The notes under the pieces: model-generated
Seen by the model: the letters and a program-made list of their open reading frames with translations, nothing else
Told to the model about the DNA's origin: nothing
The model's database searches: none
Made by a program: the position numbers and the translations under genes
In this document: positions 25,287 through 48,664 of the stretch, piece by piece
How the letters are laid out: each line of letters opens with the position of its first letter
Position numbering within the stretch: position 1 is the stretch's first letter
Source of the DNA: Selenomonas sp. AE3005
Lineage (GTDB): Bacteria > Bacillota > Negativicutes > Selenomonadales > Selenomonadaceae
Reading direction: 5' to 3'
Assembly (NCBI RefSeq): GCF_000686945.1
Contig: NZ_JMME01000001.1
Coordinates: forward strand, 124,001-188,000
DNA: 64,000 bases

Positions 25287-25448
25287 AATCCAGCATGGCA
25301 TTTAGTTATTTTTCAAGGAAAAGCCATTTTTCCGTGATCATGGATAAAAGCTTTTTCAAAACCATAATCAGCGCATCCATGTACTGTAAATCCTTAAGCT
25401 TTGACGCTTACGATTGTAGTGGATATTTGGAGTCGAAGATTATTTGAA

Positions 25449-25519
25449 GAGCTGAATGCTGGAAAACCGCACGTTCAGTTCTGTGAGGGGCGAATGTGAA
25501 AGCATATCGTCTACTTGAC
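25449..25519 (+). mobile_element. 3' end of a group II intron (domains V and VI)
   Basis: Bases 25449-25481 fold as intron domain V: GAGCTGAA at the 5' side pairs with the closing TTCAGTTC, with an inner stem capped by an A-rich loop and an ACG bulge region. TGTGAGGGGCGA follows as linker and domain VI, and the segment ends CTACTTGAC, the usual 3' end of bacterial IIC-type introns. No reverse transcriptase gene or 5' end is present, so it is a fragment. It abuts the terminator of the fic gene on the other strand; IIC introns favour terminator hairpins as targets. Confidence 0.6.
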
Positions 25520-45809: not shown

Positions 45810-46598
45810 GTGTTTAAAAATATCTTGCATCACAAGGCGGCGTCCTGCACGGACTGTGCCAAGCTTTGCTGCACGAAAATCGAAAACTTCACGGTGACAG
45901 CCGGCAATATGACTATTTTTGCCGATGTTAATATTCACCTGCATTGTGGACAGCTGACGGCCTTGATTGGCCCTAATGGTGCCGGCAAAAGCACACTGCT
46001 GAAAGCCATTTTGGGGGAGGTGCCCCATAAAGGACAGCTGCATTATGCTGATGCCGAAGGGCGGCGCAGCGGCCAGCCGATTATCGGCTATGTGCCCCAG
46101 TATCTGCGGTTTGACGTCAGTGCGCCTATCAGTGTCATGGATATATTCTTGGCCTGTCTGACGGACAAGCCGGTGTGGCTGACTTCGGGGCGGAAAATGC
46201 GGCCCCGGGTGCTGAAAAATCTGGCACGTGTGCATGCCGAACATTTAATTGACCGGCGCTTGGGGGCATTATCAGGCGGCGAGCTGCAGCGTGTACTGCT
46301 GGCGCTGGCCCTGGACCCCCTGCCGGACTTGCTGCTGCTTGATGAGCCGGTGTCCGGGGTCGACCAAAACGGCCTGGAACTGTTCTATGAGATTTTGGCT
46401 GAACTGCGTGAGAAAGAAGACATGGCTATTTTACTGATTTCCCATGACCTCAACATGGTGGCTAAACATGCTGACCAGGTGGTACTGCTGAATAAAGGTG
46501 TTATCACCAGCGGCACGCCGGAGGAAGTTTTTGCGGACGAGCGGACGCAGAAGACCTTTGGCCTGCTGGCCGGCACGGTGATGGGAGGACAGAGCTAA
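45810..46598 (+). CDS. ZnuC-like metal ABC transporter ATP-binding protein
   Basis: A 262-residue ABC ATPase of the manganese/zinc/iron family. Walker A GPNGAGKSTLL near residue 55, signature LSGGELQRVLLALAL near residue 150, Walker B LLLLDEPVSGVD, and the switch histidine in LLISHDLNMV are intact. The unusual part is a cysteine-rich N-terminal extension, CTDCAKLCCTK at residues 13-23, before the normal domain start. It may bind metal and sense it, which is inference. GTG start with GGAGGAG upstream. It lies directly behind modC, and the permease gene follows with a one-base overlap. Confidence 0.88.
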   Translation: MFKNILHHKAASCTDCAKLCCTKIENFTVTAGNMTIFADVNIHLHCGQLTALIGPNGAGKSTLLKAILGEVPHKGQLHYADAEGRRSGQPIIGYVPQYLRFDVSAPISVMDIFLACLTDKPVWLTSGRKMRPRVLKNLARVHAEHLIDRRLGALSGGELQRVLLALALDPLPDLLLLDEPVSGVDQNGLELFYEILAELREKEDMAILLISHDLNMVAKHADQVVLLNKGVITSGTPEEVFADERTQKTFGLLAGTVMGGQS

Positions 46599-47440
46599 TG
46601 ATGGAACTATATAGCATTATGGATATGCTCCTGCCCTTTGACTGGGCCAGGTATACATTTATGAAACATGCCTTCCTGGCAATTCTTTTGGTAACGCCTT
46701 TGTTTGGCCTGCTCAGTACCATGGTGGTGAGCAACCGCATGGCGTTCTTTTCGGACTCTTTGGGACATGGCGCTTTTACAGGTATTGCCATTGGCGTATT
46801 GCTCGGTGCTGTATCACCGCTCGTGTCGCTTGTGCTGTTCTCGGTGGCGTTTGCTGTCTTTATTACCTATATAAAGAACAAAAGCACGGCCTCTACCGAT
46901 ACCATTATCGGTGTGTTTTCCTCCACAGCTATTGCCCTGGGCCTGATGATTATGAGTCATGGCGGCGGCTTTAATAAGTTTTCTTCCTATCTAATCGGTG
47001 ATGTATTGAGCATTACGGCAGAGGACTTACAGGCCCTGCTGCTGGTGGTGTTAGTAGTGCTCGGAGGATGGGCTCTGCTCTTTAACCGCTTGCTGGTACT
47101 GTCTTTAAACTCCGCCTTTGCTCGCAGCCGGGGGATAAATACCTTTTGGGTGGAGAGCCTGTTTGCTGCCATTCTGGCGGTGGTGGTGGCCATCAGTATT
47201 CAATGGGTAGGTATTCTGATTATCAATGCCCTGCTGGTACTGCCGGCAGCCGCAGCGCGTAATGTGACCAATAATGTCAAAGCCTATCAGCTGCTGTCGG
47301 TACTTATTGCCTTGGGAGCAGGATTGATGGGACTATTGCTGGCCTATTATTGGAATATGGCCGCCGGGGCCACGATTGTGGTGATTTCAGCAGGGGTGTT
47401 CTTTATTACACTGGCATTAAAATCACGTTTCCGCCGTTAA
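46598..47440 (+). CDS. ZnuB-like metal ABC transporter permease
   Basis: A 280-residue membrane protein of the ABC-3 (ZnuB/TroC/MntB) family with about eight helices. Markers are FFSDSLGHGAFTGIAIG near residue 50, DTIIGVFSSTAIALGLMIMS, and WVGILIINALLVLPAAAARN near residue 205. It would import Zn, Mn or Fe with the ATPase before it. No periplasmic binding protein gene is beside them, which is unusual. The start may be either of two ATGs in ATGATG. Confidence 0.9.
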   Translation: MMELYSIMDMLLPFDWARYTFMKHAFLAILLVTPLFGLLSTMVVSNRMAFFSDSLGHGAFTGIAIGVLLGAVSPLVSLVLFSVAFAVFITYIKNKSTASTDTIIGVFSSTAIALGLMIMSHGGGFNKFSSYLIGDVLSITAEDLQALLLVVLVVLGGWALLFNRLLVLSLNSAFARSRGINTFWVESLFAAILAVVVAISIQWVGILIINALLVLPAAAARNVTNNVKAYQLLSVLIALGAGLMGLLLAYYWNMAAGATIVVISAGVFFITLALKSRFRR

Positions 47441-47442
47441 AT

Positions 47443-47553
47443 AAAAAAAGCGATGCGGCTGTGGCCGCATCGCATGCAGAAGGGGAACGCGAGCGTCTTT
47501 CGGTCTAACTGCATAAAGGGGAAGACCGGTGGAGGACGCGCGTTGATTGGTAA
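47443..47553 (-). ncRNA. Candidate C-rich trans-acting small RNA
   Basis: On the minus strand a TATAAT box (47565-47560, -35 weak) precedes about 110 bases with no gene and then a perfect GCGATGCGGC/GCCGCATCGC stem (47473-47450) followed by seven T, a proper terminator for this strand only. The RNA would contain three C-rich stretches, GTCCTCC, CTTCCCC and TTCCCCTT, partly in loops. Such motifs are complementary to Shine-Dalgarno sites and typical of regulatory RNAs of the RsaE/RoxS kind. ATGCAG and CTGCAT can pair around one of them. The plus-strand gene before it and the aldolase after it have their own limits. Confidence 0.45.
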
Positions 47554-47611
47554 CCTGAGATTATATATTCTTCATGGACGGATAAAATTCCTTCTTTTTC
47601 CCTGTTATGTA

Positions 47612-47651
47612 AAAAAGACTTCCTGAAACCGAAGTTTCAGGAAGTCTTTTT
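47612..47651. terminator. Bidirectional terminator after the aldolase gene
   Basis: A perfect 18-bp stem (47612-47629 with 47634-47651, loop CGAA) has A5 on one side and T5 on the other, so it works for fba on the minus strand and also on the plus strand. Confidence 0.92.
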
Positions 47652-47668
47652 GGCGTTTAATCAAGCAA

Positions 47669-48664
47669 TTATTTTGCGTTGATGAGAGCCATGATTTCAG
47701 GAGCACGGCCATCGGAACCGAGAACGTCCTTAATCTTGTGCTCAACGAGTTCCTTAATGTAGGAACGGCCATCAGCAACATACTGACGCGGGTCGAAGTG
47801 TTCCGGATGAGCCATGAAGTGCTCACGGATACCAGCCGTAAGAGCCAGACGCAGGTCAGAGTCGATGTTGATTTTGCAAACTGCGGATTTAGCAGCTTTG
47901 CGGAGCTGGTCTTCAGGAATACCAACAGCATCGTCCAGCTTGCCGCCGTTAGCGTTGATGATCTGAACGTACTTCGGAATAACGGAAGAAGCACCATGGA
48001 GAACGATCGGGAACTCAGGGATCTTCTTCTCGATTTCAGCCAGAATATCGAAACGGAGTTCAGGCGGTACGAGTACGCCATCAGCATTGCGAGTGCACTG
48101 TTCCGGCTTGAATTTGAATGCGCCATGGGAAGTACCGATAGCGATAGCCAGGGAGTCTACGCCAGTTTCTTTGACGAATTCCTCAACTTCTTCCGGCTGC
48201 GTGTAAGCTGCTTCATGAGCAGCAACCTTAACGTCATCTTCGATACCAGCCAGTTTGCCGAGCTCAGCTTCTACGCAAACACCATGTTCATGTGCGTAAG
48301 CAACAACTTCCTGAGTGCGTTTGATGTTCTCTTTGAAGTCATAATGAGAACCATCGAACATTACGGAAGTGAAACCGTCATCGATGCAAGCTTTGCAGGT
48401 TTCGAAATCTGCGCCATGGTCGAGGTGCAGAGCAACGGGAATATCGTTAACTTCCAGAGCAGCCTCAACGAGGTGACGGAGATACGGGCCCTTTGCATAT
48501 TTACGAGCACCGGCAGATGCCTGCAGGATAACCGGGGAGTTCAGCTCAGCAGCTGCTTCCGTGATACCCTGTACGATTTCCATGTTGTTGACGTTGAAAG
48601 CACCGATAGCGTAGCCGCCTTCGTAAGCTTTCTTGAACATTTCTTTAGTTCCAACTAATGGCAT
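47669..48664 (-). CDS. fba: Fructose-bisphosphate aldolase, class II
   Basis: Fba splits fructose-1,6-bisphosphate into dihydroxyacetone phosphate and glyceraldehyde-3-phosphate with a zinc ion. The 331-residue protein starts MPLVGTKEMFKKAYEGGYAI and has the zinc-site LHLDHGADFETCKACIDDGF near residue 80, FDGSHYDFKENI, the glutamate region CVEAELGKLAG, and the phosphate-binding VLHGASSV near residue 225. AGGGGGT lies upstream. A TATAAT box at 48722-48717 and a GTTCAA/TTGAAC stem precede the gene. It is a monocistronic, GC-balanced housekeeping gene. Confidence 0.96.
   Translation of the reverse strand: MPLVGTKEMFKKAYEGGYAIGAFNVNNMEIVQGITEAAAELNSPVILQASAGARKYAKGPYLRHLVEAALEVNDIPVALHLDHGADFETCKACIDDGFTSVMFDGSHYDFKENIKRTQEVVAYAHEHGVCVEAELGKLAGIEDDVKVAAHEAAYTQPEEVEEFVKETGVDSLAIAIGTSHGAFKFKPEQCTRNADGVLVPPELRFDILAEIEKKIPEFPIVLHGASSVIPKYVQIINANGGKLDDAVGIPEDQLRKAAKSAVCKINIDSDLRLALTAGIREHFMAHPEHFDPRQYVADGRSYIKELVEHKIKDVLGSDGRAPEIMALINAK

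Follow-up and report, generated by a model that had tools for sequence, protein, structure and literature searches.

A predicted small RNA gene with conserved C-rich segments in the Selenomonas ruminantium group and its candidate Shine-Dalgarno targets

Organisation of the predicted gene

The window, the 64,000-nucleotide stretch of Selenomonas sp. AE3005 DNA analysed here, almost certainly carries a real small RNA gene on its minus strand at 47443–47556, as judged from 11 homologous sequences and covariance model R1. The best explanation, which we regard as probable, is that the gene stands on its own and specifies a base-pairing small RNA of ~112 nt that would act in trans to block selected mRNAs. 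Action through the pairing of C-rich segments at ribosome sites is likewise considered probable.

The preliminary description of this locus had pointed to a TATAAT, about 110 gene-free bases and a terminator fitting only the minus strand, and all three are confirmed. The −10 box TATAAT (47565–47560, minus strand), identified from the sequence and the alignment of the copies, precedes the strong minus-only terminator by ~110 gene-free bases. The intrinsic terminator and its U tail (47443–47473), recovered by terminator search and reinforced by covariation, comprise 10 pairs, eight of them G-C, at 47473–47450, followed by seven T at 47449–47443. The segment 47440–47555 folds at −39.2 kcal/mol against −23.9 ± 2.9 kcal/mol in shuffled sequences (z −5.26), a value that beats all 200 of 200 dinucleotide shuffles. 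The 5′ end of the RNA is placed at 47553–47556 by its distance from the −10 box, giving a predicted length of ~111–114 nt, and AGGUUACC forms the tail at this 5′ end.

The upstream region of the gene displays a constant organisation. Directly upstream of the −10 box lies a GAAGAA element (47568–47573, minus strand) that reads CGCGAA in 10 of the 11 copies when these are aligned by context, while the −35 region is occupied by GGAATTTT (47584–47591, minus strand), which conforms to GGAWTTTT in every copy. The first base of GGAWTTTT stands 18 bases ahead of the CGCGAA/GAAGAA element in all 11 copies, as counted by eye. The layout GGAWTTTT, 10 bases, CGCGAA (GAAGAA here) and an A/T-rich −10 box is kept at constant spacing behind four different upstream contexts. 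A strict sigma-70 scan of 46500–48500 returned no promoter, against a mean of 2.5 in shuffles, and no TTGACA was found there. This promoter-like arrangement of GGAWTTTT, N10, CGCGAA and an AT-rich box lacking TTGACA, which spans 47560–47591 on the minus strand and recurs in the homologues, could reflect an activator or a preferred sigma factor.

Conservation and secondary structure

The predicted RNA is composed of four parts. The 5′ tail AGGUUACCAAUC (47545–47556, minus strand) is invariant in the 11 copies and is predicted to be mostly unpaired. It is followed by a hairpin with covarying stems (47486–47544) that presents the C-rich loop CUUCCCCUU (47516–47524, with CTTCCCCTT at 47524–47516), by the invariant linker CCCCUUCUGCA (47475–47485), which is the predicted main seed, and by the terminator. 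Loop and linker were both delineated by their conservation and predicted openness. Invariant columns account for 12/12 positions of the 5′ tail, 11/11 of the linker CCCCTTCTGCA, 6/8 of the loop core and 8/9 of the T-run. In contrast, only 1/11 and 1/12 columns are invariant in the two arms of the upper stem, where the mean column identity is 0.48 and 0.45. The stems drift across the 11 copies yet keep their pairs.

The C-rich loop displays a predicted unpaired probability of 0.71–0.87 in 10 of the 11 copies and the linker one of 0.75–0.92, while the corresponding values in the copy L007 are 0.33 and 0.50, the predicted fold of this copy leaving neither segment open. The mean for the 5′ tail is 0.51–0.79, also predicted. 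The terminator is present in all 11 copies and its loop contains no C-run. Three C-rich stretches had been proposed originally as anti-Shine-Dalgarno segments, and all three are present in the sequence. The loop and the linker are conserved, the C-rich stretch TTCCCCTT lying at 47487–47480, but GTCCTCC (47531–47537, minus strand), the first of the three, is partly within a stem and occurs in one of the 11 copies only. The conserved C-rich motifs are found in the loop and in the single-stranded segment, predicted to be open in every copy except L007, and the pattern anticipated for a functional RNA, with the C-rich loop and linker and the terminator kept while the remainder drifts, is observed across the 11 copies.

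Covariation was assessed on the 11 sequences, 10 of them distinct, as aligned by plain MAFFT. The structure named above pairs in 95.9% of 270 cells, compared with 85.7% in shuffles and 33–49% in slid versions, and its covariation score is 0.388 against 0.192 in shuffles. Changes on both sides affect 8 of the 27 pairs and 24 cells, where shuffles give 5.4 and 7.7; of these measures the count of doubly changed pairs is the weakest, as 25 of 500 shuffles reach it. The structure is favoured by its own test because it was drawn from these same 11 sequences. RNAalifold, run unaided, recovers 20 pairs corresponding to the lower hairpin stem and the terminator, five of them with double changes.

No reading frame is common to all 11 copies on either strand. 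A small-protein gene would be consistent with the short frames that occur in most copies, one of which is shared by some subsets, but the lack of a universal frame, the small number of frames with a ribosome-site-like sequence and the extension of the sense frames through the terminator render such a gene extremely unlikely. With 11 homologues in four upstream contexts and no common frame, the stand-alone non-coding unit originally proposed on this strand is upheld.

Phylogenetic distribution

When 60 related genomes were searched at the DNA level, 11 of the 22 belonging to the genus proved to contain the unit, the present one included. The covariance model recovered the same 11 copies, at 95.8–139.7 bits, among 189 genomes of the family, and two exact patterns applied to the 189 genomes again gave this set. 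No copy was found by covariance search in the 167 other genomes of the family, a search that scored 19 of the ~1000–1900 first-look candidates per genome shown and could miss diverged copies. A three-part pattern sought in 84,980 species, each represented by a single genome, produced 13 matches, namely eight in Selenomonas ruminantium and five in unrelated bacteria, the latter being taken as chance. The DNA matches outside the genus (G039 and G026) extend over 24–25 bases and, being short, were likewise taken as chance. The plasmid search gave no match, and the matches listed in a 14-base viral scan are as numerous as chance predicts and therefore uninformative.

In the present genome the covariance search gave one full match at E ≤ 10, with 150 of 1608 first-look candidates scored. 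A second match, at 18.4 bits, corresponds to the opposite strand of the terminator hairpin. A relocated copy in the RNA-free half of the genus was considered and rejected: in 10 genomes the sequence adjoining znuB is a different one, as read by eye, and these genomes display no match elsewhere. G006, whose assembly is 68% complete, gave a match neither to the RNA nor to znuB. In four loci of the RNA-free half (L038, L040, L044 and L045) the gene downstream of znuB looks, from its sequence, like a serine recombinase.

When 21 species are placed in a ZnuB tree, the 11 that carry the RNA occupy one side of a branch with support 99/99, a topology compatible with either one gain or one loss of the RNA gene. 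As far as the searches reach, the RNA appears confined to part of one genus, the S. ruminantium group. The covariance search of relatives envisaged in the preliminary description was productive within the genus (11/22) and gave no copy among the 167 other family genomes; since only half of one genus carries the RNA among 189 genomes, it would not be general to Negativicutes within this search reach.

Genomic neighbourhood

All 11 copies are arranged tail-to-tail with a znuB-like gene, represented here by a ZnuB/AztB-like metal ABC transporter permease that scores under the NCBIfam cut-offs (46598–47440, plus strand). The RNA is not a leader, because the gene beyond it is convergent. Four kinds of upstream neighbour are found: the class II fructose-bisphosphate aldolase gene fba (47669–48664, minus strand) in the present genome only, a Gfo/Idh-like gene pointing away in five copies, another gene in two and a guaB-like gene in three, the names Gfo/Idh-like and guaB-like being read off translations. 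The small RNA does not belong to fba, because its upstream neighbours differ. The significance originally attached to the glycolytic gene is not sustained, as fba adjoins one of the 11 copies, and redox, metal or carbon control, suggested at the same time, gained no specific support beyond the position of the unit.

The RNA might instead be a non-regulatory 3′ fragment or read-through product of fba, which lies upstream on the same strand in the present genome, and the consensus −35 is absent. This origin is very unlikely: a terminator-like hairpin with T-runs on both strands (47611–47651, read by eye) separates fba from the RNA gene, fba is the neighbour of a single copy, and the promoter-like layout is kept in all four contexts.

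The constant neighbour raises another possibility, that the RNA works in cis with the metal-transporter operon: it would be antisense to the 3′ terminal part of znu read-through mRNA and would either tune the stability or termination of that mRNA or be mopped up by it. The tail-to-tail arrangement in all copies favours this relationship, as does the T-run of the RNA gene, which stops 3 bases short of the znuB end in the present genome. However, there is no overlap with the znuB coding region in this genome, inertia can preserve neighbours, and full antisense overlap needs neither open, invariant C-rich seeds nor covarying stems. A cis role is consequently considered quite unlikely, and a trans-acting RNA is preferred.

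Candidate mRNA targets

In the favoured trans-acting mechanism, the putative promoter (GGAWTTTT, 10 bases, CGCGAA, A/T-rich −10) and the terminator would yield an RNA of ~112 nt, presenting an open 5′ tail, a hairpin with a CCCCUU loop, the single-stranded CCCCUUCUGCA linker and the terminator. The linker, perhaps aided by the loop, would pair in the cell with selected mRNAs at Shine-Dalgarno sequences of the GAAGGGGA type, and this pairing would repress them by blocking ribosome binding in an RsaE/LhrC-like manner. The best candidate target would be a PheP/AroP-like permease mRNA, the permease being one for amino acids.

The target screen covered three genomes (G000, G010 and G017) and looked for starts with AGAAGGGG or AAGGGGAA, two short patterns only, in front of them. 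The screen gave 229 pattern rows, with counts 1.6 to 2.9 times those of the reversed-pattern control (11, 14, 19 and 15, 27, 20 for G000, G010 and G017), an excess that ribosome sites in general would give. Leaving out one G000 row, 13 rows from G017 contigs C6 and C10 and frames shorter than 40 codons, 127 candidates formed six groups present in all three genomes and nine present in two, several candidates lying inside genes. The six groups comprise sigH, the amino-acid permease, a mannose-type PTS component, a nucleoside transporter, a KDO-transferase-like and an O-antigen-ligase-like gene; the name sigH comes from a scan, those of the last four from reading only. In addition, a DAHP-synthase-like gene, also named by reading, carries AGAAGGGGAUGG in two of the three screened genomes, the third having no pattern match. 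Two of the six groups, the permease and sigH, were compared between branches.

The permease scores best against PheP (559.6 bits) and AroP (546.1 bits), both under the cut-offs. Its start displays GAAGGGGA in 12/12 genomes of the RNA-bearing branch, including G006, which gave no match to the RNA and is placed there by its permease, versus GGAGAUGAA in 10/10 others. The linker-permease duplex is predicted at −17.1 to −21.5 kcal/mol in all 11 RNA-bearing species, while the 10 permease sites of the other branch, paired with the G010 RNA, give −7.9 to −14.5 kcal/mol. In full co-folding the G004 permease value, −10.9, falls within the range of the other branch (−3.4 to −14.8). A further permease in G015, a distant one (56% identical), has the start AAAGGGG. 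Ranked by energy, the permease is absent from the top 45 duplexes of the 127 candidates, many of which are intragenic.

At sigH, AAAGGGGAA is found in both branches and offers an equally good site, so that sigH was ruled out as a branch-specific target, there being no contrast in site or duplex. The only control genes with usable starts in both branches are znuB, sigH and a modA-like gene; none displays a switch of the permease type, and three genes are too few to set a base rate for start-site switches. The permease contrast could be due to chance, because it reflects one evolutionary event seen in one of the two genes followed. That the permease is a true target of the RNA is possible, though doubtful, on the basis of these duplex predictions and start sequences. 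Less probable still, and indeed unlikely, is a role for the RNA in the S. ruminantium branch as a regulator devoted to the supply of aromatic amino acids, the permease ribosome site having been rebuilt to match it; the AGAAGGGGAUGG of the DAHP-synthase-like gene would fit this reading too. If true, it would exemplify the joint evolution of a small RNA and a Shine-Dalgarno site, and the difference between the permease starts of the sister branches makes such co-evolution directly testable.

A genome-wide excess of start sites that match the RNA, specific to the branch carrying it, was also considered and rejected. GAAGGGGAA starts number 138 in the 12 genomes of this branch (reversed control 52) versus 88 in the 10 others (control 14), these being raw pattern matches that may include non-starts, and when each count is set against its control, enrichment is lower in the RNA-bearing branch. 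These counts argue against any broad remodelling of start sites in that branch.

Two features of the leaders were noted by eye. An inverted repeat, GTACCTGCC / GGCAGGTAC, flanks the permease TATAAT in 7 of the 12 RNA-branch genomes (L303–L307, L309 and L313), within ~70 bases upstream of the start, and resembles a repressor site; one half is present in G003, G008 and G020, and neither in G004 and G013. In sigH, many of the 21 leaders (L282–L302), from both branches, carry a GAAAACNGGGG..GTTTTC-like stretch ahead of AAAGGGGAA; it possibly forms a hairpin of its own, and G000 is without it.

A real small RNA could also function through its invariant 5′ tail or through a bound protein, Hfq or another, the C-runs being structural or stabilising only. 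Such a role would account for the complete invariance of the tail (12/12 columns) and for the thin target evidence for the C-runs, and hfq is available, being found in 21 of the 22 genus genomes, the exception being the incomplete G006. Nevertheless, the linker CCCCUUCUGCA is just as invariant and is predicted to be open in 10 of 11 copies, and C-runs so placed are described as the pairing sites in LhrC (PMC4132741) and RoxS (PMC4409812). This explanation is held to be not very likely, and pairing through the C-rich segments is preferred.

Comparison with known C-rich small RNAs

Selenomonas-type bacteria are Firmicutes with an outer membrane. The combination of an outer membrane and hfq in Firmicutes provides a good setting in which to ask whether C-rich small RNAs of the Firmicute style use Hfq. 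Among the titles and abstract starts covered by a literature search, none dealt with regulatory small RNAs of Selenomonas, Veillonella or Negativicutes, which does not mean that no such study has been published.

RsaE/RoxS displays a hairpin-plus-terminator layout and a CCCCUUUG-type motif, both of which resemble the Selenomonas RNA. The original assignment of the unit to the RsaE/RoxS type stands as far as this layout is concerned, which recalls both RsaE/RoxS and LhrC, but there is no Rfam match at the cut-offs. The RsaE/RoxS model gave no match in the window at the gathering score, in 47400–47680 at E ≤ 10 or in the 11 loci at E ≤ 5. Of the Rfam models, LhrC (RF00616) alone covers the full length of the unit on the minus strand at E ≤ 10, and its score of 18.1 bits (E 2.2; cut-off 110 bits) does not amount to a significant match; in a larger Rfam search LhrC matched none of the 11 loci, the present one included. 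Other weak Rfam matches lie beside the unit or on the opposite strand, under the cut-offs, and were taken as chance. The only Rfam family above its cut-off in the window is a Group II catalytic intron at 25447–25519 on the plus strand (50.2 bits).

In RsaE of Staphylococcus aureus and RoxS of Bacillus subtilis, several C-rich regions are described as pairing with G-rich Shine-Dalgarno sites (PMC4409812), and the Selenomonas RNA similarly possesses C-rich regions, for which pairing with Shine-Dalgarno sites is predicted as a potential. In contrast to RsaE/RoxS, it is without an Rfam match and was found only in part of one genus. RoxS, FsrA and CsfG of B. subtilis are reported as C-rich RNAs with similar predicted structures, pairing of C-rich stretches with Shine-Dalgarno sites being described for RoxS/FsrA (PMC8216469). 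The Selenomonas RNA shares C-rich regions with FsrA and CsfG, while no Rfam match to these two, as far as Rfam models them, was obtained at the Selenomonas unit.

LhrC of Listeria monocytogenes is described as having a C/U-rich loop, a C/U-rich single strand between two hairpins and a terminator (PMC4132741), and the Selenomonas RNA has an identical order of parts. LhrC differs in being multicopy and in carrying a third motif in the terminator loop (PMC4132741), whereas the Selenomonas RNA gives one match per genome and has no C-run in that loop. The Selenomonas RNA is best seen as a new family within a known kind, the C-rich, Shine-Dalgarno-blocking small RNAs of Firmicutes.
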